This document shows, piece by piece, positions 1,624 to 41,888 of a stretch of DNA of 45,064 nucleotides. A program made the position numbers and the translations under genes. Below the pieces are notes generated by a model. The model was given only the letters and a program-made list of their open reading frames with translations. It made no database searches and was not told where the DNA came from. This stretch comes from Bacteroidota bacterium (lineage in GTDB: Bacteria; Bacteroidota; Ignavibacteria; UBA10030; UBA8401), in NCBI GenBank assembly GCA_020052095.1, contig JAGVPT010000044.1, positions 1 through 45,064 on the forward strand, in the 5' to 3' direction. The number at the start of each line of letters is the position of its first letter. Within the stretch, counting starts at the first letter, position 1.

Positions 1624-4332
1624 GTGAAAAAGATAGTGCTTCCCCTCGCCTTTGTTATACTCATACTTTGCTTACGTATTCTTCTACCGAAGAATGAAAA
1701 CAGTCCCCGACTCTCCATTGGTTCAGAAGAAAACCCAAACGGTCGTGAAGAATATGAATTCATGGTCATGCGTGATCCGGTTCGAAATGAGATCCCTGCA
1801 AATATTCATCGTATGGAGGTCGAGTTGTCACGCCGGTTACCCACGCGTGAATCATACGCTCTTGCAAAAGGATATGCAGTCGAGGCATTAAAATGGTCCG
1901 AACGTGGACCGGATAATGTCGGAGGACGCACTCGAACTTTTGCTGCGGATGTCGAACATCCTGGTATTCTTATTGCAGGAGGTGTTGACGGTGGTATCTG
2001 GAAATCAACCGACGATGGTGGCTCGTGGAAACTTAAACTGAAACCACAACAAACTCATTCGACAAGCTGCATAGCACAGGATAACCGGCCGGGGAAAAAA
2101 CATATTTGGTATGTCGGTACCGGCGAGTTCCGCGGTTCAACGACAAATAACACCCGCTGGGGTTCGTACTATCATGGTGATGGTATCTATAAATCAACAG
2201 ATGATGGCGAAACATGGGATATTCTTCCCTCAACCGTTTCCGGAACCCCGAATATACCGGACGCTTTTGATTTTATCTGGAATATCGCAACGAATCCCTT
2301 AAATCTTACGCAGGATGAACTGTTCGCTGCAACCTGGCGCGGTATCTATCGCTCAACGAACGGCGGCACAACGTGGAATAGTGCTAAACTCTCTGATTCC
2401 GGAACCGTCAATACCGCAACCGTTACAACCGATGTTGCTATCACACATTCCGGTGTCATGTATGCCCACACACGGGAAAATGGTATCCTAAAAATTTGGA
2501 GATCAATAGATGGCGTAACGTGGACTTCGATCGCGCCAAATACATTCCCAACTTCTAGTGGGCGCGTTGTATTTGCAACGGCTCCCTCCGATACAAACGT
2601 TTTGTACTCTTTCATTCAGGGTGCAAATACAACTCCCGCAGTGAACGGACACCAACTCTGGAAATATACATACAGCGATTCCGGCAGCACGTGGGAAAAC
2701 CGGAGCGCTAATCTTCCTTCTGATCTCTCAACCCAATCAGGTTATGATCAGACCCTCCATGTAAAACCTGATAATATCGACTTTCTGCTGCTTGGGGGGA
2801 CCAATCTCTATCGCTCGACAGATGGATTTAAGACATCCGCAGCTACTCAAACGATAGGCGGCTATCCTTATTATCCTGGAGGTCTACATCATCCCGATAT
2901 GCAAGGAGGAATGTTCAAGCCAACAAATCCAAACGTGTACTATTCATCGAATGACGGCGGGGTACAACGTGCAGATGATATCACGATGGGCGGATTTATG
3001 AAATGGACTTCCCTCAATAATGGGTACAATGTCACTCAATTATATTCGGTTTCAATTTCACCTGATAGCGGCGATCGCGCGATTATTGCCGGTGCACAAG
3101 ATAACGGTTCCATTGCCACAGATTCTCTTGGGATGTCTTCGTGGATAGCGATCTTTGGTGGAGACGGCACGGTGTTGGAACTTCCCCCTATTGCAGATGA
3201 TCGTATGTATACTCAGTATCAGAATGGACCCCTCCATCGCCAAACGCGCGCCGGATTCAGTGTTACAACCTTAAATCCAAATGGAAGTACACGGCAATTA
3301 TTTGTGAATCCGATCGCACTCGATCCCAATAATTCAAAATTGCTCTATTATGGGGCCGGCAGCACGATATCTCCAACATTCTATAGCGGTATCTGGAGAA
3401 ACAGTAATGCACCCAATGGTACAATAACGGCTGGTTGGACACCGATCGCAGCAAGCGATGTTGGTATTCCATCGGGATCAACTCGTGCCGTGAGCGCTAT
3501 TGGAATTTCAAAATCTAATAACCCAAACGTTGTATACATCGGAACGACGGACGGAATTGTGAGACGGATCGATAACGCAGAATCTGTCACACCAACCGGT
3601 ACGGACGTAACTCCTCCCGGATTGAACGGAGGAACCGCTCAAGGAGGGTTCGTGCGATGTGTCGCGGTTGACCCTATAAATTCAAATAGAGCGCTTCTTG
3701 CATATGGTAACTATAATTTCAAGAGCCTCTGGCTCACTACGAATGGCGGATCAACCTGGAGTGATGTTGAAGGAAATATTTCCGGAGTGTCCGGTCCGTC
3801 AATTCGATGGGCGAGCATGCTTTATGTCGGAGATCAGTTGAATGCATTTATTGGAACGAGCATTGGTCTTTTGATGACAAACAAGCTTCAGGGCGATTCA
3901 ACAGTGTGGGTGCAAGCAGCCGCAAACGAGATCGGTAATGTTCTTATCTCCTATATGGATTACCGGGAATCAGATAGAACAATTGTTGTGGGAACACATG
4001 GCCGAGGAGTATTTTCAACTCAAATACCAAGCACACCATTAAGCGTAAAACCGACGCCAACGACACCTCAACAATTTGCGTTGGAACAAAATTTCCCAAA
4101 TCCATTTAATCCGACAACAACTATTCGATACACACTTCCGACATCTTCAAAAGTGAAATTGACGATATATGATATTCAAGGAAGAGAAATTGCAACACTC
4201 GTGAACGAAGAACAATCTGCGGGATGGAAGGAAGTGCAGTGGAACTGCACCGGTGTGTCGTCGGGTATTTATTTTTACCGAGTGCAAGCCGGAAGTTTTG
4301 TCGAGATAAAAAGAATGGTGTATTTAAAATGA
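1624..4332 (+). CDS. Secreted sortilin-like beta-propeller protein with T9SS sorting domain
   Basis: This 902-residue exported protein starts at a GTG behind AGGGAGA. An N-terminal hydrophobic segment (about 4-21) serves as signal peptide or anchor. The body carries repeated Asp-box/BNR motifs (KSTDDGGSW, KSTDDGETW, RSTNGGTTW, TTNGGSTW) typical of sortilin/VPS10-like or glycosidase-type beta-propellers. Residues 818-902 form a type IX secretion C-terminal domain (Por_Secre_tail type) with NFPNPFNPTTTI, a YDIQGREI strand and a GIYFYR strand. Such proteins cross the outer membrane through T9SS and are retained at the surface or released. No catalytic residues could be assigned, so the specific role (binding, adhesion or hydrolysis) is unknown. 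It is transcribed towards the polysaccharide locus and is not part of that operon. Confidence 0.9.
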   Translation: MKKIVLPLAFVILILCLRILLPKNENSPRLSIGSEENPNGREEYEFMVMRDPVRNEIPANIHRMEVELSRRLPTRESYALAKGYAVEALKWSERGPDNVGGRTRTFAADVEHPGILIAGGVDGGIWKSTDDGGSWKLKLKPQQTHSTSCIAQDNRPGKKHIWYVGTGEFRGSTTNNTRWGSYYHGDGIYKSTDDGETWDILPSTVSGTPNIPDAFDFIWNIATNPLNLTQDELFAATWRGIYRSTNGGTTWNSAKLSDSGTVNTATVTTDVAITHSGVMYAHTRENGILKIWRSIDGVTWTSIAPNTFPTSSGRVVFATAPSDTNVLYSFIQGANTTPAVNGHQLWKYTYSDSGSTWENRSANLPSDLSTQSGYDQTLHVKPDNIDFLLLGGTNLYRSTDGFKTSAATQTIGGYPYYPGGLHHPDMQGGMFKPTNPNVYYSSNDGGVQRADDITMGGFMKWTSLNNGYNVTQLYSVSISPDSGDRAIIAGAQDNGSIATDSLGMSSWIAIFGGDGTVLELPPIADDRMYTQYQNGPLHRQTRAGFSVTTLNPNGSTRQLFVNPIALDPNNSKLLYYGAGSTISPTFYSGIWRNSNAPNGTITAGWTPIAASDVGIPSGSTRAVSAIGISKSNNPNVVYIGTTDGIVRRIDNAESVTPTGTDVTPPGLNGGTAQGGFVRCVAVDPINSNRALLAYGNYNFKSLWLTTNGGSTWSDVEGNISGVSGPSIRWASMLYVGDQLNAFIGTSIGLLMTNKLQGDSTVWVQAAANEIGNVLISYMDYRESDRTIVVGTHGRGVFSTQIPSTPLSVKPTPTTPQQFALEQNFPNPFNPTTTIRYTLPTSSKVKLTIYDIQGREIATLVNEEQSAGWKEVQWNCTGVSSGIYFYRVQAGSFVEIKRMVYLK

Positions 4333-5355: not shown

Positions 5356-5657
5356 ATCGAGTTCGAGTTTTCACAACAAATGTACATAATCATTTCTTTA
5401 GTTGCGCGAGATTCACTTGAGTTGACCGTTATCTTCACTCTGTTTGAAACTTCATGCCTCTGATCTGTCGTGGACTTAGCAGAATGTCAGGGGATTGAAA
5501 AGATAACGGTCAACTTGAATATTTACATTCGGAGACAGCAAGCGCGCAATCTAAATCCGGATAATTGTCGTTGCTGTGGATAAACGGAGGTAGGTTTTAG
5601 CTTTCCATGAGAGGCGAATGAAGATCGTCGGTTTACCAGCAACTACGATACTTCGTC
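5356..5657. other. Non-coding gap with a long inverted repeat
   Basis: No gene is seen. A 15-nt sequence GTTGACCGTTATCTT (5421-5435) recurs as its exact reverse complement at 5500-5514, separated by 64 nt. Nearer the downstream gene, the minus strand has TACATTTG (5377-5384), which fits the Bacteroidota -7 element TAnnTTTG. No TTTG lies at the expected distance, so it is only a weak promoter candidate. The gap may hold the promoter or a processing site for the guanylyltransferase gene. Confidence 0.5.
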
Positions 5658-6128
5658 CTAGTCGGACATTGTTTGAAGAATGGGGAAGATTCTGGTGATC
5701 TCGCTTTCGAGTTCTTTAAAACATTTTTCGTATTTTCTCTTCGCTCTTCCCGTCGGGTCGTCCACAGATTGGTTCGAGGGGAGTTGGGGCTGACCGAACT
5801 CTTTCAATAATAGTATCTTGGTTTCCCACTGCGGAAAAATCCCCCGGATAATCCTCCTGTGAGTCTCGGCCATGCAAAGGACGACGGTTGCATCGCGAAT
5901 CATCGTATCGGTTACTTGTTGGCTTCGGTGCGACGCAATATTGATGCCGTGATTCTCGCACACGGCGGTCGTGGTATCGTCGGGGGGAGCCTCGATGAGC
6001 GCTTCTGTTCCCGCAGAGTCGACTATAAAATTTTCCTCTAGTCCCGCCTCCGCCGCCATCTTTTTGAGAATGGCCCCGCTCATAGCGCTCCTGCAAATGT
6101 TGGCGGTACAAACAAAGAGTACGTTCAT
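5658..6128 (-). CDS. Low-molecular-weight protein-tyrosine phosphatase (Wzb-like)
   Basis: This 156-residue cytoplasmic phosphatase has the P-loop CTANICRS, with catalytic Cys7 and Arg13 in the C-x5-R pattern. The general-acid loop is DDPTG (Asp123/124-Pro125). Length and order match the LMW-PTP family. In capsule and exopolysaccharide systems such enzymes dephosphorylate the Wzc tyrosine kinase; a Wzc homologue with a C-terminal tyrosine cluster lies at 38061-40448 in the same locus. Its ATG directly follows the stop codon of the histidine-kinase gene (TAGATG), so the two are probably translationally coupled. Arsenate reductase is the alternative reading for this fold, but the context favours the phosphatase. 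Confidence 0.9.
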   Translation of the reverse strand: MNVLFVCTANICRSAMSGAILKKMAAEAGLEENFIVDSAGTEALIEAPPDDTTTAVCENHGINIASHRSQQVTDTMIRDATVVLCMAETHRRIIRGIFPQWETKILLLKEFGQPQLPSNQSVDDPTGRAKRKYEKCFKELESEITRIFPILQTMSD

Positions 6129-8495
6129 CTATTGGGTATCCAGCACTTTCCTGATTACCGTCATCACTTCTTCGAGGGAGAATGGCTTCGTGATAATGTC
6201 CCGCACGCCTAGGTTCAGAAAATCAATTTTCGCTTTCAGGTCAATCCCTCCTGTGGCAAAAATGACTTTCACCGATGAATCGAGCGCGCGGAGTTTGCGA
6301 TACAGTTCTTCACCGTTCATCTTCGGCATCATTAGATCGCTTACCACCAAATTAATTTCGGAACGATGCTGCTCATACAGCGCAAACGCCTCTTCGCCGT
6401 CCTTAGCTGCATACACTTTATAGCCAATCGACACTAATACATCCTCGTAGATCTGGCGGAACGATTCTTCGTCGTCGGCAATGAGAATACACTCGGTTCC
6501 TCCAACGGGAGCCTCCGCAACATCTTTTTCTCCTCCCGACTCCTCGTGGTAAAGGACAGGGAAAAATATCGAGAATGCGGTCCCCTTCCCTTTTTCGCTC
6601 TTCACATCGATAAATCCGCCATGGTTCTGTACAATGCCGTACACGACAGAGAGCCTTAAACCTGCGCCATGGTCCGTTGTTCTCGCATTGAAAAACGGCT
6701 CGAAAATGCGCCGTTGGCTGTACTCGTCCAATTCCTTTCCGTTGTCGACAACGTTGATGACAATGAATTCTTTTTCTTCAGTGAAAGGGAATTTTTCTTT
6801 CACGAATTTCGGGTCCGCAATAGCTGTTTCAATTTTTATCGTGCCTCCACCGGGCATACGTTGTTGAGCATCGAGGGCAAGATTCACGATCGCCTGGTGA
6901 AGTTGATGAATATCGCCCTTCACAAAGGCCTTGTGGTCGTTTAAGCCGACCGAAAGCGTGATGGACGGGGGTAAGGAGTGCTCGAGAATTTTCCGGACAT
7001 GGTTGAGTATTTTTTCGGCTGAAACCGGCTTTTCTTCTCCGCTCTTCGACCGCGCAAACACGAGAAGGTCGTCAGCCAACTCCGATGCCCGTTTCGACTC
7101 TCGGAGGATCATTTCTACGTAATGTACAAGCAGCGGATTGCCGGCGGCCTCTTTGTTGATCACTTCGGCAGAATTCATTACGATGCCGGCAATGTTTTTG
7201 AGGTTGTTGCCAATGCCGACCGCGAACGCTCCGAGCGCATCCATTTTCTGGACTTGCTGTGATTCCAGTTCATACTTCTTTCTCTCACTCACGTCGCGGA
7301 AAATGCTGAGAAGCAGTTTCTCGTTCTTTCCAATATTGATGAATGAGTGACTGATTTCAACGGGTATCTTCTCGCCGTCGCGGCGATCAATAAGCTGAGA
7401 CGCCGGCATCTTCAACGTCCCAGCGTCGAACTGGGTTCGAAACGATGAGGCGGCGCTGTACCGTGCTTCGAGGTTTTCATCCCCTGCATTGTATTCACGG
7501 AGCAACTCCTCGTGTGAACTCTTCACTAAGTCGCAGTACGCCGAGTTTGCCATTACAATTCTCCCGTAGCGATCCATCAGGCGCATTGCATCGACGGAGT
7601 TCTCAAAAATAGTCCGGAACCGTTCTTCAGAGCCTCGGAGAGACGATTCTGCGGTTTTCAATTTTGTGTTATCGAGCAACAAGTAGAGCGTCATAACGAA
7701 AACCGCTGCACACAATGCTCCGCAGAGCGCCGCTCCGAAGGCCATCCCGGGCGTCCAAAACGAATACTTCGGGTTCGCAATATTAACGCTCATCAGGAGG
7801 CCGTACCCAATCACGGCGCGCTGAACGCGAAGAGAAGCGTCGACGTTCGAAAATCCGGTTGACGTTATCTCTTGCCCGAGACCAGAAAATAAGGAGATCT
7901 CATAGCCCGGCATGGGATAACGCCGAAGTACCGTGCCAAGAAGCTTCTCCGCAGAATAGAAAACCGAAATCGTTCCGGACGTAACTCCTTTTTCAATAAC
8001 GACAATTCTTAATTCAAAATAATACCCCTTCTCCGAACGAAACGGCTTCGAATAGAGCACGGTATGGAAGCTATCACTGACGGAAAGACGCTCGTGGTCC
8101 TCAGCGGATAACCGGGGAAAATATACTGCGGCCGAATCCGAAAGAATTTTCCATTCGACGACGTCGTTGTTTGTTCTGGCTTCAATAGAGACTATTTCGG
8201 GATGACTGAGAGCATAGCGCTGAAAGCGGCGTTTTGTGCTCTGGCCTTCGTCGGCCGCCGCGTGGGATGTTTGCAAGAAAAACTTTTCGTTATCGAGCAA
8301 CGTTGCTTGGATCGCTGAACTGAGGATTTGAATATCACGGTTTACCCTCTCCTGCTCGGAAGACGAGCTCTGATCTACCATATAAGAATAGAGTGAGCCG
8401 AATGCAGCCGCGAAAACAAGGAATAACGCAGTCGGGTAGATATACACTCCACGGTTGCGTGAAGTTGTTCTGCGTTTTTTCATCACCTCAACCAA
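6129..8495 (-). CDS. Hybrid sensor histidine kinase with degenerate kinase core and intact receiver
   Basis: This 788-residue membrane protein has TM helix 1 (about 20-40), an extracytoplasmic sensor region (about 41-245), TM helix 2 (about 248-275), a PAS domain (about 285-400), HisKA and HATPase regions (about 412-647) and a receiver domain (about 668-788). In the H-box the phosphoacceptor histidine is replaced: GIGNNLKN (427-434) stands where GIAHDFNN is usual, so His430 is Asn. The ATP-binding boxes are also altered: N-box NLALD has Asp542 for Asn, G1 DNGKE has Glu578 for Gly, and G2 GAGLRL has Arg614 for Gly. The receiver keeps Asp674/Asp675, phosphoacceptor Asp720 (SDLMMP), Thr748 and Lys770. 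It probably cannot autophosphorylate and may act as a pseudokinase scaffold or phosphate acceptor. Start chosen: TTG at 8495 after AGGA; ATG at 8483 is the alternative. Confidence 0.88.
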   Translation of the reverse strand: MVEVMKKRRTTSRNRGVYIYPTALFLVFAAAFGSLYSYMVDQSSSSEQERVNRDIQILSSAIQATLLDNEKFFLQTSHAAADEGQSTKRRFQRYALSHPEIVSIEARTNNDVVEWKILSDSAAVYFPRLSAEDHERLSVSDSFHTVLYSKPFRSEKGYYFELRIVVIEKGVTSGTISVFYSAEKLLGTVLRRYPMPGYEISLFSGLGQEITSTGFSNVDASLRVQRAVIGYGLLMSVNIANPKYSFWTPGMAFGAALCGALCAAVFVMTLYLLLDNTKLKTAESSLRGSEERFRTIFENSVDAMRLMDRYGRIVMANSAYCDLVKSSHEELLREYNAGDENLEARYSAASSFRTQFDAGTLKMPASQLIDRRDGEKIPVEISHSFINIGKNEKLLLSIFRDVSERKKYELESQQVQKMDALGAFAVGIGNNLKNIAGIVMNSAEVINKEAAGNPLLVHYVEMILRESKRASELADDLLVFARSKSGEEKPVSAEKILNHVRKILEHSLPPSITLSVGLNDHKAFVKGDIHQLHQAIVNLALDAQQRMPGGGTIKIETAIADPKFVKEKFPFTEEKEFIVINVVDNGKELDEYSQRRIFEPFFNARTTDHGAGLRLSVVYGIVQNHGGFIDVKSEKGKGTAFSIFFPVLYHEESGGEKDVAEAPVGGTECILIADDEESFRQIYEDVLVSIGYKVYAAKDGEEAFALYEQHRSEINLVVSDLMMPKMNGEELYRKLRALDSSVKVIFATGGIDLKAKIDFLNLGVRDIITKPFSLEEVMTVIRKVLDTQ

Positions 8496-8522: not shown

Positions 8523-9749
8523 TTATGGGTAGAAACTGATTCTGCCGGTCCAAAACTTCGTTACAAGATACGAAATAAATCCGCCGCGTTCACGTCGTTG
8601 AATCGATGACGCAGCAATAACGCTGTCGGCAAAGGTATCAAGCGACCACTTATCAATAATCTTACTAGAATGCAACCCCATCTGTTCCAATCGCTCCGCA
8701 GGCAGGTCAGTCATTGCGGACATGCATTGCGCGAGGCCTCCAGAATCATCAACACCGAAGGTCCAACCGTTGCCCCCCTCCTCAACCAATTCCCCGCCTG
8801 CTCCGCATCCTCTGCTTATGAGAACCGGAAGGCGCGACGCCATTGCCTCGTTGACGACGAGTCCCCAGGTTTCACCTTCGCTCGGAAGAATGAACGCGCT
8901 CGCAAGACCATAGTAACGGCACAAATTCTCGCCGAACTGACTCCCAACAAATTTCACTTCGGGAAACTCTTTCATCCTCTCTTCATGGTGCTTTTGTTCA
9001 TCACCGTCACCGACAAGAATTAATCCCCACTTCTCTTTAGACGACGATTTCCTGTATTGACAGTACGCATCGAGAAGGGTTTTGATTCCTTTTCGTTCGA
9101 TAAACCTTCCGACAAAAAGGAAATACTTTGATGGAAGATTCAACTCGCGACGCAGTGTTGTGGCTTGACGGCGAAACATGTCCGCGAAGGTTTCAAAATA
9201 GTCGTTGTCGACTGTATCGACACCATAAAAAATTCTTTCGGGTGAAAATCCCATTTTCAGATAATATGGCGCGTGCGATGGCGCCGGGATGAACGCCGCA
9301 TCGATATTTCTATGAATAACCTTTTTTATGGCACTGATGATGGGTCCACGCCGATCCGAGAATTCCCACGCGTCATCCATCATAACGCTGATCTTGTTGT
9401 GCTGCAAGCAGTATTTGATCGACGCCATCCCTGATGGAAACGGCGTGGCCGGCGCGATCACAACGTCGGGCTGAAGCCGTTCGATTGTCCGAAGCGCGGT
9501 CGTATGAATGGTGTACGGAGCGAGCGCTCGGTACGATTTTCCGGAGAAGAGGCAAATGTAATCGTCTTCCCTCGACACGTTTTCGGGGAATGGATAGAGT
9601 GCATCCTTCGATGCCACCTCGATTGCGGTGAGGTGCCATTCGAGAGCGAGAAGGCGTTTTCGCGTATGCCGAATCCGTGCCACGTGGTGCGGCAAATATT
9701 TCGTCCACATGATGACGATATGCTTGCGCGGATTTGGAGTGCTGTTCAA
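8523..9749 (-). CDS. GT4-family glycosyltransferase
   Basis: This 408-residue GT-B retaining glycosyltransferase would transfer a nucleotide-activated sugar to a lipid-linked glycan on the cytoplasmic side. The second Rossmann domain begins at YFLFVGRFIERKGI (about 209-222), followed by LILVGDGDE. The EX7E motif is Glu293...Glu301 (GETWGLVVNEAM). The start is a TTG (9747-9749) overlapping the TGA of the upstream ligase gene. The ATG at codon 14 would cut the first beta strand, so TTG is preferred. The acceptor and sugar cannot be told from sequence. Confidence 0.88.
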   Translation of the reverse strand: MNSTPNPRKHIVIMWTKYLPHHVARIRHTRKRLLALEWHLTAIEVASKDALYPFPENVSREDDYICLFSGKSYRALAPYTIHTTALRTIERLQPDVVIAPATPFPSGMASIKYCLQHNKISVMMDDAWEFSDRRGPIISAIKKVIHRNIDAAFIPAPSHAPYYLKMGFSPERIFYGVDTVDNDYFETFADMFRRQATTLRRELNLPSKYFLFVGRFIERKGIKTLLDAYCQYRKSSSKEKWGLILVGDGDEQKHHEERMKEFPEVKFVGSQFGENLCRYYGLASAFILPSEGETWGLVVNEAMASRLPVLISRGCGAGGELVEEGGNGWTFGVDDSGGLAQCMSAMTDLPAERLEQMGLHSSKIIDKWSLDTFADSVIAASSIQRRERGGFISYLVTKFWTGRISFYP

Positions 9750-11122
9750 TGGTCACCACTGTCTTGCGTATCGGCCTCATTCGAAACCGACGTTGTGGCA
9801 TCGTCCTCCAATCTTTCGTCTTCACGGTATGTCAATGAACGTGTCGTTCTTCGGTATCGGTTTTCGTAGAACTCGTCTTCTTCATACGAGATTTTTTCCA
9901 GCCGTGCACGTTTTTCCGCGCCGTACGCAAGACCGATGATCGTGAACTGAAGATTGCCGTAGAACGCTGCATACAACACAATATTGTCCGTAAACATCAT
10001 AAGAACAAATGGAAGAAATGATGAAGCGCCGGCAAAAAAGAATGTGCGTATCTCTCCCTCGCTGTGCCGCGCCTTTTTGAGAAGATGGCGAACCTGAAGA
10101 ATCATTGTCAGAAGAAACAACATAGTACCGACAACACCGTAATCGTACAAGAACCGGAGCCAATCGTTATGAGGATGCGTGAGCTGTCCTTCTGACAGTT
10201 TCAAGATTAATTCTTCCGATGCGTTGGCGCCATGCCCCCACCAGGGCTTGTTGGCAATCTCTAGCAGCAATATTTCTGCCATATAGCGTCGGCCGCTCGT
10301 CGCAAGAGTTCCTTCATCTCCAATATCTTTGAGTGTACCTTCCCCTGTCATGAACATTTTTCCTTGTACACGCGACGTGTAGAAGAGGGCCAACCCAAGA
10401 AGAGCAACAATCACCATCAGAACTACCCTCATCCGCAACTTCATGGGTGAAAAGGTGAATGGCAACGACAATCCTGTTACGAAGATTGCCATGCGCGTCA
10501 GCGCCAAAACGGGCAGCGTCGCGATAGCTCCCCACCAAAGCAGGTCTCTTACCCTCCCAAACGAATAGCCGGAGACAAAAAAGCTGGCAAGCAGTGTAGC
10601 GGTAATCGCCTGAGGCGCCAATGCGGTAGTGCCGGGCAATTGTCCTGTAAGGAGAAGACCGGTTAGAAGGCCGGCAAGAACAAGAAGAGATATCGAGAAG
10701 ATTCGTACAAGAATCTCAAAGTTAATAAGTTGCTCTTCATCGATCCTCGCGGTCGATGCGGCCATCCCGACAATAACAGGACACAGAAGCATCGCGCTTC
10801 GTTGCAGGTTAGTGTAGTCGGACATGTATCCACTCAGAATGATGAAGAGTCCCCACGGCATCCATACGGAAATCGGAAAACTCATTCTGTCTAAGTTCGC
10901 TGGAATGATCATGGCGGAGAATGCGAAACAAAGTATCCATGCGTACCCTGCGACAGAGAACATCAATAAACTCGCACCGCCAAAAGCGCATGCAAAAAAT
11001 GTTGTGATGAAGACCATCCACACGATGATGGAAAGCTTTGAATGCCGCAGAGCATCTTTCCAACTCAGCGTTCCGACTTCTTCGACTTCTTCTAAAACAT
11101 CATCTGGGACTTCTTCTGCCAT
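9746..11122 (-). CDS. O-antigen ligase/polymerase-family membrane protein
   Basis: This 458-residue polytopic inner-membrane protein has about ten hydrophobic segments and a large loop holding the Wzy_C/WaaL signature, including GHGANA and HPHNDWL. Proteins of this family join O-antigen to lipid A core (WaaL) or polymerise repeat units (Wzy); sequence alone does not decide. The charged C-terminal tail (about 395-458, many Glu, Arg and Asp) is cytoplasmic and unusual in length. The stop overlaps the next gene's TTG. In a locus with a Wzm/Wzt exporter, a ligase role fits better, because ABC-exported chains are polymerised before export. Confidence 0.82.
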   Translation of the reverse strand: MAEEVPDDVLEEVEEVGTLSWKDALRHSKLSIIVWMVFITTFFACAFGGASLLMFSVAGYAWILCFAFSAMIIPANLDRMSFPISVWMPWGLFIILSGYMSDYTNLQRSAMLLCPVIVGMAASTARIDEEQLINFEILVRIFSISLLVLAGLLTGLLLTGQLPGTTALAPQAITATLLASFFVSGYSFGRVRDLLWWGAIATLPVLALTRMAIFVTGLSLPFTFSPMKLRMRVVLMVIVALLGLALFYTSRVQGKMFMTGEGTLKDIGDEGTLATSGRRYMAEILLLEIANKPWWGHGANASEELILKLSEGQLTHPHNDWLRFLYDYGVVGTMLFLLTMILQVRHLLKKARHSEGEIRTFFFAGASSFLPFVLMMFTDNIVLYAAFYGNLQFTIIGLAYGAEKRARLEKISYEEDEFYENRYRRTTRSLTYREDERLEDDATTSVSNEADTQDSGDH

Positions 11123-14887: not shown

Positions 14888-15514
14888 TCACAATCCTTTG
14901 CTCTCCTGCGGTCGATAGAGCTGAGGATTAAGGGACGGGTCGTTATACATCTTGAATTGGCGATAGAGAACCATCTTTATAGAACCCCGATTCAATGCAA
15001 GAATCATATCTTTCAACGCCTGCTGCAGATTTCTTTGCTGCTGTTTAAGTATCTCCAATTTTCCTGCGCATGTATTACGATGTGCTGCATCCACATCTTT
15101 TCGCCGTGTCTGATCGAACATGTAATAGACCTTTAGAGACAAGATGGACAATCGATCAAAAACACTTCCCGGTGTCTCAGTGCGAAGGGGCAATTCCCTG
15201 TCGCCAAGTTGCTTGTAATGATTCTCGACCAACCATATGTCAATCTTTTCAATGATATCATTTCGTTGCTGGTTCAGAGTGTCGATGGTGCGCTTTGCCG
15301 CCACAATAAGCGAGTCACCGACATCCCTTCGGCGGGCAAAATCCTCCTGATTCCATAGTGAATGATTGCAGACAAGAAGTTGAAAAATAAGGGCTTCTAA
15401 CTCCTTCGATGCTGCGGGGGCGCCAATTTTCTTGTTGTTTGCCAATCTGGTGACCCACACATCAAGCGAATTGAATATCTCTTCCAATTGTTCGCGATGA
15501 AACTTTTTCTCCAT
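14888..15514 (-). CDS. DUF4254 domain protein
   Basis: This 208-residue soluble, helical protein belongs to the DUF4254 family, which is frequently found beside LPS or O-antigen glycosyltransferases in Bacteroidota. Seen here are the LWNQEDFARR segment, the SVFDRLSILSLKVYYM stretch and the C-terminal YRQFKMYNDPSLNPQLY stretch, which I recall as characteristic of the family. No enzymatic motif is known to me. Its place between glycosyltransferase genes suggests a role in glycan assembly, possibly as a partner or acceptor-recognition protein. Family assignment is firm; function is unknown. Confidence 0.85.
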   Translation of the reverse strand: MEKKFHREQLEEIFNSLDVWVTRLANNKKIGAPAASKELEALIFQLLVCNHSLWNQEDFARRRDVGDSLIVAAKRTIDTLNQQRNDIIEKIDIWLVENHYKQLGDRELPLRTETPGSVFDRLSILSLKVYYMFDQTRRKDVDAAHRNTCAGKLEILKQQQRNLQQALKDMILALNRGSIKMVLYRQFKMYNDPSLNPQLYRPQESKGL

Positions 15515-17909: not shown

Positions 17910-19057
17910 CTTATCCTCTTGAGTAAGAATTGAACGGCCGCTTCACAATACCATCGCGGCATGCCTAGTTTTCCTTTAGTTTGTCTGTCCTCGGGTTCGG
18001 CAAAAAGCGACTCATAACGGTCGAGCATCCTATCCGCAGAGAATGTATCGGCGGAAATTCTGCGGGCATTCAACGACATTGCCTGATAGTGTTCCGTATT
18101 GCCATGAATCCTCTTCACGGCCTCCACAAAACCATCTATATCCAGTGGCGTTACGAGTAAGCCCGTTTCGCCCTGTTGAACCAACTGGTCGGTAATGCCT
18201 AGCAAGCGCGAGACAACCGGCACGACTCCGCACATCATTGCTTCAACAATCACCAGCCCAAATCCCTCGAGGTTTGTTGGTAAAAGGAGTATATGAGATG
18301 CTCTCATTATCTTAGCAGTCTCGTCCGGAGATGTCGCGCCTTGTATCAATACTCTCTTTTGCAGCCCGCGCATCCTAAACTCAGAGTCAAGGTGTGCTTT
18401 TAACGGACCATCGCCGATTATTGTGAGAAACGAATCGGGAATCGCGACCGCGACCGCCTGAAAAATATCTGGCAGCAAATTGGCCCCCTTTGATTCCCCG
18501 AGGAATCCCACAAAAAGAATCTTACGGGCCGAACCGTCATTTTCGGCCCCCTTCGGGAAGAATCTGCTGCGATCAATACCATGAGGTATGACTCGGATTC
18601 TGCTGTGGAGACGTTGGTTAACAAATTTATGAAATCGAGCTGCAACTCCAGCGGTCGGTGCTATCCATCGAAATAGCCTGCCGGAAAAAAGGGCGCCTAT
18701 CGCATAGAATCGGGAGTCGTCACTGTGAAGAACAGAAATGGTTTTTATTCTTGGGTCGATCAATGGAATCGCGTATTGCATTAATGCACAATTATTCATC
18801 AAAATGACATCAGGCATAATTGAGTTGGCAAGGTCCGCCGCTTTGAGCACTTTCTTCGGAGAAAGCGGAACTGCTGACAGATCGTGGCAACTGAAGCTTC
18901 TGCTCGCCTCATCAAAATAATTACCATGGGCATTGGTAACCAGCAGATGAACGTCCCGGCCGCGAGACCTTAAGCCGCCAATTAGATTCATGAGATATGA
19001 TCCTAGCCCCCCGGCGCCTATTTCCGTTGAAGCAATGATAATTTTCTGAGACTTCAT
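17906..19057 (-). CDS. GT4-family glycosyltransferase
   Basis: This 383-residue GT-B enzyme has the N-terminal loop TEIGAGGLGSYL (11-22), ILFVGFLGESKGA at the start of the second domain, LTIIGDGPLK, and EX7E at Glu264...Glu272 (LEGFGLVIVEAM). ATGA overlaps occur at both ends, with the radical SAM gene upstream and the next GT4 downstream, so the three are translationally coupled. It probably acts on the same glycan. The sugar is unknown. Confidence 0.88.
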   Translation of the reverse strand: MKSQKIIIASTEIGAGGLGSYLMNLIGGLRSRGRDVHLLVTNAHGNYFDEASRSFSCHDLSAVPLSPKKVLKAADLANSIMPDVILMNNCALMQYAIPLIDPRIKTISVLHSDDSRFYAIGALFSGRLFRWIAPTAGVAARFHKFVNQRLHSRIRVIPHGIDRSRFFPKGAENDGSARKILFVGFLGESKGANLLPDIFQAVAVAIPDSFLTIIGDGPLKAHLDSEFRMRGLQKRVLIQGATSPDETAKIMRASHILLLPTNLEGFGLVIVEAMMCGVVPVVSRLLGITDQLVQQGETGLLVTPLDIDGFVEAVKRIHGNTEHYQAMSLNARRISADTFSADRMLDRYESLFAEPEDRQTKGKLGMPRWYCEAAVQFLLKRIR

Positions 19058-20553
19058 ATGTCCTTAGCTTTGCTCACCCACGGGAGGAATCGCCTCGCCA
19101 TGTTCAGCAATTTACGAAAAAGTCGATAAATGAATACGTGCAGATATTGTGCTTTTCTACTGCTTGTTAGAAGGGCTTTCAAGTAAGACGGATGCAGGCT
19201 GAAGATTTGCCAGCCTCTCTCAATCATAAATCGTCTGCCGAGCTTGGCGGAGAGGTCCTCAATATTGAGGCTATGAGCCGCCATTCGAAACCTCGGATCA
19301 ACGATAGATACGTATGTCTTGCAGTCGCTGTAAAGCTGATACTCTTCAACCGTAAGAGGTGGTCGGACATAGCGATCATAGATCTCCGTGCCTGGATAAG
19401 GCGTGGTAACACATATTCCATATGTCGTCGCTTTGATATTCTCCATTAGGTCGACGGTTTTTCTTACATCCTCCTCGGTCTCTTCGGGGGTATTGATGAG
19501 GATATTGGCATAGGTGCGGATTTTTTCCGCGCGGCAGCGGCGGAAGACCTCTTCCGTTTCATTTATCTTTATTCCTTTTTTCATCCGGTTCAATGATTCC
19601 TGTGAACCGGACTCCACGCCGAAATCTATCTGAATACAGCCGCTCTCTTTGAGGGCGCGAAAAACATTATCAGGAAACTGATTGACACGCCCTTCCATTC
19701 CCCAAACGAAACGGTGGTTGAGATCCGTGAGCTTTTCACAGAATTCAACAACGCGGTCCCTTTTTATCGTAAACGTATCGTCGTGGATGTAGAATCCGTC
19801 AATATCATATGTCTCTTTTAGAAAATTCAGTTCTTCAATAACAGACTCCAGAGGACGGAATGTTACTTTTCTTCTTCTGTTGGCGCAGAATGTGCAGTCG
19901 TATGGACATCCTCGAGCGGTAAATATATGCACTCCAGACAAATAGATCGAACGGAGAAGAAACTGTTGCGGCTGGAGATAGAAATTCATATCCAGTTTGT
20001 GGTATGGATGAATCGCCAGATCGTCCAACACCGGCTGTTCCTTCTGGGGTGCGGTGCGAATAACGTTGGTCCCTTTTCTGAAAACCAATCCGTTGATCTC
20101 TTTCCAGGGAATCGTCCCTTCTCGCTCGGCCTCAATCAATCTCCACAGCGGCAACTCACCGTCACCCACAACTGCCGCATCAAATGGGGAATCTTCATGA
20201 GCGAAGAAGTCTTCAGGAGAAACGGTCGCGTGTATCCCGCCCACGATGACCTTTGCACTGCTCCTTCGCTTGATCTCTTCGGCCAGTTTCATTACATCAC
20301 GATAATCTTCCGTGAACGCGCTGAGGCCTATCAGCGGTGACCGCGATGCGATTGCTCTTTCAACTGTTTCCTGAAATACCCTTTCCTTTTCTTTTTCAGA
20401 ATAACGGGCGTTGACATTACTTTTTACGTCAACCACGTCTACGCTGTGTCCTTTGTGCTCGACGTAACCTCCCAGCCAGAGTATCCAATGGGGAACGATC
20501 GTGCTTTTCGCACGTCCGAGCGTGGGCAACGACACCAAACAGACATCAGCCAT
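19054..20553 (-). CDS. B12-binding-domain radical SAM protein
   Basis: This is a 499-residue radical SAM enzyme of the cobalamin-binding (BchE-like, class B) type. The N-terminal Rossmann-like part (about 1-150) includes VIVGGIHATVSPED and DAAVVGDGE, typical of the B12-binding family. The radical SAM core has the 4Fe-4S motif CPYDCTFC (Cys216, 220, 223). The ATG at 20553 is chosen because GGGAGGA lies 9 nt upstream; an earlier in-frame start at 20580 has no such site. Family members methylate unactivated carbon or phosphorus, or rearrange rings. In this glycan locus a C-methylation or similar modification of a sugar or lipid carrier is a plausible inference. The stop overlaps the next GT4 start. 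The substrate is unknown. Confidence 0.87.
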   Translation of the reverse strand: MADVCLVSLPTLGRAKSTIVPHWILWLGGYVEHKGHSVDVVDVKSNVNARYSEKEKERVFQETVERAIASRSPLIGLSAFTEDYRDVMKLAEEIKRRSSAKVIVGGIHATVSPEDFFAHEDSPFDAAVVGDGELPLWRLIEAEREGTIPWKEINGLVFRKGTNVIRTAPQKEQPVLDDLAIHPYHKLDMNFYLQPQQFLLRSIYLSGVHIFTARGCPYDCTFCANRRRKVTFRPLESVIEELNFLKETYDIDGFYIHDDTFTIKRDRVVEFCEKLTDLNHRFVWGMEGRVNQFPDNVFRALKESGCIQIDFGVESGSQESLNRMKKGIKINETEEVFRRCRAEKIRTYANILINTPEETEEDVRKTVDLMENIKATTYGICVTTPYPGTEIYDRYVRPPLTVEEYQLYSDCKTYVSIVDPRFRMAAHSLNIEDLSAKLGRRFMIERGWQIFSLHPSYLKALLTSSRKAQYLHVFIYRLFRKLLNMARRFLPWVSKAKDI

Positions 20554-20826
20554 GATGCGAATTCCTCCCTTACCAAACAAATGATTTCTCGCGGTCTTCC
20601 TGTTCTATCTGGAAATAACTATCTTTTCCATCGACAACCGGAAAGCCAACAGCGGCGACCAGATAAGAGAACACCTCCTAATAGCTAGCATTCTTCCACG
20701 GCTTGGCGAAGAGACTGGCTTTCGTGAAATCGACATCCGGTAAGATTCTTCGACAAAGACATAATACACTTCTCGAGATGCCGCATTTCATGTAAGCCCC
20801 TCGGCGCAAGCGCGTATGACTTTTTG

Positions 20827-40514: not shown

Positions 40515-41888
40515 CTACCTCCCTTTACCGAACAGCATAATGTGGATTGTTTTCAACATAATATCGATATCCAACAAAAGAGAATAATGGGAAATATAAT
40601 AGAGATCGTACTGCAATTTTTCCACGGTATCAGTGATGTTTTCGCCGTAAGAATAATTCACCTGGGCCCATCCTGTGATGCCAGGTTTTACCAGGTGTCG
40701 GAAGTGATAATAGTTAATTTTCTGCTCATATTCACGGGTTACTTCAAACCATTCTGCGCGAGGTCCTATCATGCTCATTTCACCCTTGAGAACATTCCAC
40801 AATTGCGGCAATTCGTCCAATCGGGAGAGCCGCAGTAACTTGCCCACGCGAGTGACCCGCGGGTCTCGCTCACGCACGTACTTGTCGAGGGAACTGGAGT
40901 CTTGATACATTGTCCGAAACTTGTACATCGTGAACGGAATTTCATTCTTTCCAATCCGCATCTGTTTGAAGATAGCCGGTCCCCGGCTCTCCACGCGGAT
41001 CAGGATACCGATGATGATCATGAGCGGGATAAAAATAATCGAATTCACCACTGCAATCCCGATGTCAAGCATCCGCTTCAAACGGCTGTACCAGGGATTC
41101 CGGACCAAAAGAAGGTCGCCTTCAAACAGCCACCACTTATTGAGGACAAAAATCGGGACTTTCCGAAAATTGTCTTCCAGAAATGTTCTGCTCGGAATCA
41201 AAGGCACGCTACTAAAATGCAATGTTACCAACTGTCGAAAAATTTCATCGTTCAGTGACGATTTATCTTCTGTCAGGATAATCCCGTCGCAATCGCCTTT
41301 CATGAGGCGCAATTTGCTGAGAACATCCCCCTCGATCGCCGGAGATCCGTTGCCGCAGATCGGGGCGCCAATTTTTTTCCCGCTCAAATCAGCGAACCGG
41401 ACATATTGATCTTTAGGAGTCTCGGCGTACGTGCGGTACAACTCCTGCGCAGTCTCATCCGTTCCAAGAACAAGATAGAATCTCTTTCGCCTCACTTCCG
41501 CAAGACGAGAATTGATCATCCTCCGGATGAAGAGCGACACAAGGAGGAACGAGAGAAAGCTTGCCGGCAAAACGCTGCGGCTGAATTGCAGCGACGGTTT
41601 GTAACTAAAAATATACACTACCACAATCGTCGACACAACGATGATGACGACCGCCAGAATGAACTGGCTGGTGAACTGCAAACTGCGCATATCCGTATCG
41701 AGGCTATACGCCCCGATCGCGTCGAGCACCAGCCACGTTAAGACCATCGGAAGTACTGCGCGATACCAGTATTCGGTAACAAAATCCACCTCGGCGCGCA
41801 GTAGACTTAGAATAAAAAATATCCCGAAGAGCGTAATGCCGTCGATCAACATTAGCGTCCATTTGAACAATGTTTTTGATCTATACAT
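40515..41888 (-). CDS. Polyprenyl-phosphate sugar-1-phosphate transferase (WbaP/WcaJ-like)
   Basis: This 457-residue membrane enzyme starts glycan synthesis by moving a sugar-1-phosphate from a nucleotide sugar to undecaprenyl phosphate. It has four N-terminal helices (about 9-130), a CoA-binding-like middle domain (about 135-265), a re-entrant helix (about 280-302) and the catalytic PGT domain. Hallmarks are KFRTMY, DELPQLWNVLKGEMSMIGPR and KPGITGWAQVNYSYG near the end. The length matches WcaJ/WbaP homologues. It lies 67 nt upstream of the wzc-like gene in the operon. The donor is probably UDP-glucose or UDP-galactose, by family. Confidence 0.93.
   Translation of the reverse strand: MYRSKTLFKWTLMLIDGITLFGIFFILSLLRAEVDFVTEYWYRAVLPMVLTWLVLDAIGAYSLDTDMRSLQFTSQFILAVVIIVVSTIVVVYIFSYKPSLQFSRSVLPASFLSFLLVSLFIRRMINSRLAEVRRKRFYLVLGTDETAQELYRTYAETPKDQYVRFADLSGKKIGAPICGNGSPAIEGDVLSKLRLMKGDCDGIILTEDKSSLNDEIFRQLVTLHFSSVPLIPSRTFLEDNFRKVPIFVLNKWWLFEGDLLLVRNPWYSRLKRMLDIGIAVVNSIIFIPLMIIIGILIRVESRGPAIFKQMRIGKNEIPFTMYKFRTMYQDSSSLDKYVRERDPRVTRVGKLLRLSRLDELPQLWNVLKGEMSMIGPRAEWFEVTREYEQKINYYHFRHLVKPGITGWAQVNYSYGENITDTVEKLQYDLYYISHYSLLLDIDIMLKTIHIMLFGKGR

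Follow-up and report, generated by a model that had tools for sequence, protein, structure and literature searches.

A conserved hybrid pseudo-histidine kinase with an intact receiver at the end of a surface-glycan gene cluster in Ignavibacteria

Autophosphorylation of HisKA histidine kinases requires an acceptor histidine and a metal-binding asparagine, and detailed studies exist for only a few pseudo-histidine kinases. We analysed 45,064 nt of a contig of a Bacteroidota bacterium of the Ignavibacteria (JAGVPT010000044.1, positions 1–45,064, hereafter the window). This stretch carries a gene for a hybrid histidine kinase with Asn in place of the acceptor His and with an intact receiver domain. 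This locus raises the question of whether such a protein is an enzyme in decay, a kinase that uses another residue, or a protein maintained for a function distinct from autophosphorylation. A search of the literature for surveys of His-less kinases found none.

Domain layout and loss of active-site residues

The gene lies on the minus strand at 6129..8495, as do all its domains given below, and encodes either 788 amino acids from a TTG codon at 8495 or 784 from an ATG codon at 8483. The start is uncertain; the orthologue from the same genus (G001) begins with MEKRRSSS, in agreement with the ATG. The architecture is TM–dCache sensor–TM–PAS–DHp–CA–receiver, the two transmembrane helices being placed by hydropathy near residues 17–40 and 248–276. 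Between them, the extracytoplasmic part (residues 40–250; 7746..8378) is predicted to adopt a dCache fold: modelled alone with AlphaFold it reached a pTM of 0.76, and VIA-align superimposed it on the sensor of Bacillus subtilis KinD (4jgq) over 185 residues (Z 16.3, rmsd 2.9), while the Pfam dCache_1 profile gave no more than a weak match (E 0.01) in one orthologue. The PAS domain (about residues 286–404; 7284..7640; PAS_8 and PAS), the CA domain (HATPase_c, about residues 500–650; 6546..6998) and the receiver (Response_reg, about residues 668–785; 6141..6494) all score above the Pfam cut-offs. The HisKA-like DHp domain (about residues 412–490; 7026..7262) is weakly recognized (18.1 bits, cut-off 26.9), and the match begins at position 21 of 66, so that the H-box falls outside it. 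The full-length model (mean pLDDT 75.9), in which PAS, CA and receiver are confident, matches the cores of CckA, HK853 and DivL (4q20, Z 21.0), and the CA domain is structurally closest to the CckA-type 5idm (Z 23.4). Likewise, the best-scoring NCBIfam model for the PAS-DHp-CA-receiver part is that of CckA-type hybrid kinases (NF046020); the pseudokinase differs from these in its missing catalytic residues and in its score of 246 bits, which falls far short of the 1000 bits that the family model requires.

The search for orthologues in 31 related genomes yielded a set of five, including the protein of the window, which spans four genera of one family. The residues of the active site were then compared in an alignment of 49 rows, including the five orthologues and 43 paralogues. 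His430 is present in 43/43 paralogues and is replaced by Asn in all five orthologues (window, G001, G004, G005 and G009; codon at 7206–7208 of the window). The H-box of the orthologues reads I[GA]N[ND]xxNI instead of the canonical IAHDFNN; the acidic residue at H+1 is lost in four of the five (Asn431 in the window), and Asn434 at H+4, the residue needed for transmitter phosphatase activity, is invariant. Three residues of the ATP site, N542, G588 and G614 of the N, G1 and G2 boxes, are present in every paralogue and replaced in every orthologue, while D584, N538, G586 and G612 are kept. The preliminary description of this DNA had reported N430, D542 and R614 correctly; its change in the G1 box was misplaced, since residue 578 is Ile and the altered position is Glu588, which takes the place of Gly in the sequence DNGKE. 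The changes at positions 431 and 546 were not among the losses it listed. An apparent Asp at the N-box of some active paralogues turned out to be a gap artefact of tblastn; properly aligned, they have Asn in 43/43 cases.

Two new arginines are fixed in all five orthologues, R546 (N-box helix) and R614 (G2 box); they may close off the pocket or hold an anion. Their codons lie at 6858–6860 and 6654–6656, and active paralogues have Ala and Gly at these positions. In contrast to the catalytic residues, the receiver residues D674, D675, D720, T748 and K770 are present in all five orthologues, as the preliminary description had stated for the window. Since Asn stands in place of the acceptor His, and since the ATP site has lost its Mg-binding Asn as well as glycines, autophosphorylation on His is not to be expected. 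Thus, of the features of a catalytic hybrid HisKA kinase, the protein has the receiver residues and lacks both the acceptor and intact N, G1 and G2 boxes; it does share with pseudo-histidine kinases of the DivL kind a histidine kinase fold with an acceptor loss conserved across orthologues.

The canonical motif was found in the paralogues and in more distant kinases wherever the H-box could be aligned in a local comparison of the cores of all fetched loci, and the best 30 HisKA loci of the same genome all retain His. When the Asn form of the H-box was searched as an IUPAC DNA pattern, no other histidine kinase with it was detected in 22 genomes of the family, 98 of the order and 395 sampled from the phylum; the matches outside the family are not kinases.

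Conservation across orthologues

The orthologues of G001 and G004 are full-length, with 58% and 40% identity, respectively. The copy of G009 (L047, G009:C203, 4534–6264; 43% identity) has no dCache sensor, which is replaced by two TM helices and a short loop, and that of G005 (43–45% identity) contains a frameshift within the PAS domain. The latter is found as two overlapping frames at 5400–7722 of L048 (G005:C69), and the frameshift may be either real or an assembly error. In a maximum-likelihood tree calculated after removal of the catalytic columns the five orthologues form a single clade with 100/100 support, in which the branch of G005 is long (1.22). A single loss of the catalytic residues followed by their retention in the lost state is the simplest account of this pattern. 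The preliminary description had reasoned that His430 in homologues at the same position would reduce the change to a local mutation; the Asn common to all orthologues rules this out, as it does a sequencing error, and supports the proposed selection for a non-catalytic input/receiver protein.

To compare constraint between domains we considered positions invariant in at least 95% of the paralogues. In the receiver 13 of 14 such positions are kept in the orthologues. Over DHp and CA together (48 positions) 18 are kept, 27 are relaxed and three are re-fixed to a new residue (H430N, A546R and G614R). The H-box is relaxed over positions 427–433; in the DHp alone 7 of 20 are kept, N434 being one of them. 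Between the window and G001, identity is 41% in the sensor, 71% in PAS, 76% in DHp, 65% in CA and 66% in the receiver. Differences at third codon positions are 2–4 times as frequent as those at the first two, and 1.6 times as frequent in the sensor. As dS is saturated, or nearly so, between these two copies from one genus, no dN/dS value is given. The identities of 65–76% from PAS to receiver, together with the excess of third-position changes, indicate that the dead core is constrained rather than drifting; judged from these comparisons, purifying selection still acts on the DHp-CA core, and most of all on the receiver.

These data bear directly on the idea of plain decay, i.e., of a hybrid kinase that has lost its His and is becoming a pseudogene. 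The frameshift and the long branch of G005 would fit such a process, and may indeed reflect decay of the gene in that lineage. However, the same Asn, the same two new Arg and a complete receiver are shared across genera at about 40% identity, the frames are open in four of the five orthologues, and the third-position excess is strong. The shared fixed substitutions largely refute decay as a general explanation, and we consider it very improbable. The least probable reading is that of an active kinase with another phosphoacceptor: nothing was found in its favour beyond the retention of two ATP-site residues, D584 and N538, whereas the Mg-binding Asn542 and the G1 and G2 glycines are lost and no His in the DHp helices, where an alternative acceptor had been sought, is common to even three of the five orthologues.

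Genomic neighbourhood

In the window, as in G001, G004 and G005, the gene closes a glycan cluster; three of the four relatives thus have it in the same place. There the order is a Wzy_C protein, a glycosyltransferase and then the pseudokinase. In the window the O-antigen ligase/polymerase family (Wzy_C) protein is encoded at 9746..11122 and the group 1/4-type glycosyltransferase, directly upstream of the pseudokinase, at 8523..9749, both on the minus strand. Among the 22 genomes of the family, close homologues of this glycosyltransferase (55–67% identity) are found only in these four. The clusters of the window, G001 and G004 also contain a Wzc-like kinase and an initiating sugar transferase, the latter being a member of the EPS_sugtrans family at 40515–41888 of the window. 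The G009 copy lies on a small contig with no adjoining glycan cluster. The pseudokinase is a candidate regulator of the surface-glycan cluster, bearing in mind that genomic association by itself does not amount to control. Two further genes inside the cluster of the window encode a DUF4254 protein (14888–15514) and a B12-binding radical SAM protein (19054–20580).

Downstream, immediately after the stop codon of the pseudokinase, begins a gene for a Wzb-like low-molecular-weight tyrosine phosphatase (5658..6128, minus strand; Pfam LMWPc, 1.6e-35), which had led to the suggestion of a link between two-component signalling and control of Wzc. The adjacency holds in the window and in G001, which belong to one genus. 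Its place is taken in G004 and G009 by a gene for a DUF2062 membrane protein (assigned by Pfam for G004 and by resemblance for G009), and G005 has neither of the two; as a conserved function the phosphatase/Wzc link was therefore rejected beyond the genus. The DUF2062 genes occupy the place of the phosphatase at 2605–3093 of L046 (G004:C59) and at 4051–4521 of L047. At 1624–4332 the window encodes a secreted protein that ends in a type IX secretion sorting tail and weakly matches Sortilin/Vps10; G004 and G009, too, have homologues of it close to the pseudokinase. T9SS sorting tails fit a bacterium of the Bacteroidota type.

Possible modes of action

The protein probably regulates another kinase rather than acting as one. 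By analogy, the most likely mode would be that of Pseudomonas RetS, exerted on another hybrid kinase, and we assign a probability of about one half to the reading that this conserved pseudokinase works in a RetS-like manner on a phosphorelay for surface glycan. RetS has a degenerate HATPase, does not autophosphorylate, accepts phosphate from GacS on its receiver and has phosphatase activity through its HExxT motif; it dephosphorylates the receiver of its partner and inhibits the partner's autophosphorylation (PMC5992135). The dCache sensor would set the conformation of the kinase-dead PAS-DHp-CA dimer, which would pair with, or dock onto, an active hybrid kinase. Asp720 of the receiver could take phosphoryl groups from this partner, and the DHp, with its H+4 Asn434, may dephosphorylate the receiver of the partner or its own, with the overall result that the phosphorelay controlling glycan production would be dampened or gated.

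We favour RetS-like action since no other part of the protein is as well conserved as the receiver, and phosphorylation of this domain by another kinase, as the preliminary description had supposed, is plausible. Both proteins are kinase-incompetent, with a degenerate HATPase and a retained H+4 phosphatase residue; a receiver that takes phosphate from another kinase has been shown for RetS and is postulated here by analogy. The G009 protein, which has lost the sensor and the adjoining glycan cluster, still has the dead core and the intact receiver. Mutational work on HisKA kinases assigns the H+1 acid to the kinase reaction alone and the H+4 Asn/Thr to the phosphatase reaction alone, and a His-to-Ala mutant retains most of its phosphatase activity, although in some kinases, e.g., PleC, the His matters for it (PMC3510030). 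On the other hand, N434 is just one of the seven DHp positions kept out of 20, and is by itself a weak sign of a phosphatase. RetS, which we compared by its published description, also differs in keeping the His and the H-box and in having two receivers, whereas the lineage of the window has no acceptor His, a single receiver and, in place of an intact HExxT, only Asn434. Therefore, we do not class the protein as a RetS; it may work like one.

Alternatively, and less probably, the protein could have lost both activities, as in Caulobacter DivL, and serve purely as a sensor or scaffold: its core would bind the phosphorylated form of its own or of another receiver and relay a conformational signal to a partner kinase. 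In the conserved pseudo-kinase DivL the acceptor His is replaced by Tyr across orthologues; it has PAS input and a preserved DHp-CA fold, binds ATP weakly and lacks phosphatase activity (PMC4211667), a precedent which also weakens the phosphatase step proposed above. The structural match to 4q20 and the relaxed H-box agree with this alternative. However, DivL acts in the alphaproteobacterial cell cycle and ends in DHp-CA (PMC4211667), whereas the protein studied here has a C-terminal receiver, its best-kept part, and an invariant Asn434.

It is unlikely, in our view, that the receiver is a membrane-anchored, direct effector of a glycan enzyme, for instance the initiating transferase or the Wzy-type protein, with the dead kinase as its sensor-controlled mount. 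In Myxococcus xanthus, phosphorylated EpsW activates EpsZ (PMC12802240), which likewise ties a receiver domain to exopolysaccharide synthesis, and both the EPS_sugtrans assignment of the transferase and the conserved position at the cluster end suit such a role. Yet EpsW consists of a lone receiver domain, free of any other, which DifE phosphorylates (PMC12802240); in the present case an effect of the receiver itself on a glycan enzyme is a proposal, and the G009 protein has neither adjoining glycan genes nor the neighbouring glycosyltransferase. More doubtful still is a variant in which R546 and R614 replace Mg2+, turning the CA domain into a metal-independent sensor of a nucleotide or an anionic ligand, while the receiver, gated by the sensor and phosphorylated in trans, acts on the membrane glycan machinery itself.

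Pseudo-histidine kinases are a known kind of protein; on the sequence comparisons presented here, the Asn-for-His hybrid with an intact receiver would be a new variant of it. In this lineage the acceptor His and the ATP-site residues were lost, in one event according to the tree, and the loss has been kept across genera with the receiver untouched, which offers a natural case for separating the functions of a dead DHp-CA core (phosphatase, docking, heterodimer formation) from kinase activity. If the protein acts like RetS, its partner may be one of the active hybrid kinases of the same genome that are nearest to it in core or receiver (contigs C34 and C16), as related hybrid kinases tend to interact (PMC8175716). 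A whole-protein scan of genome contigs returned distant kinases only. The genome of the window also contains, at G000:C33:7440-8597 (L059), a hybrid-kinase match interrupted by one TGA.
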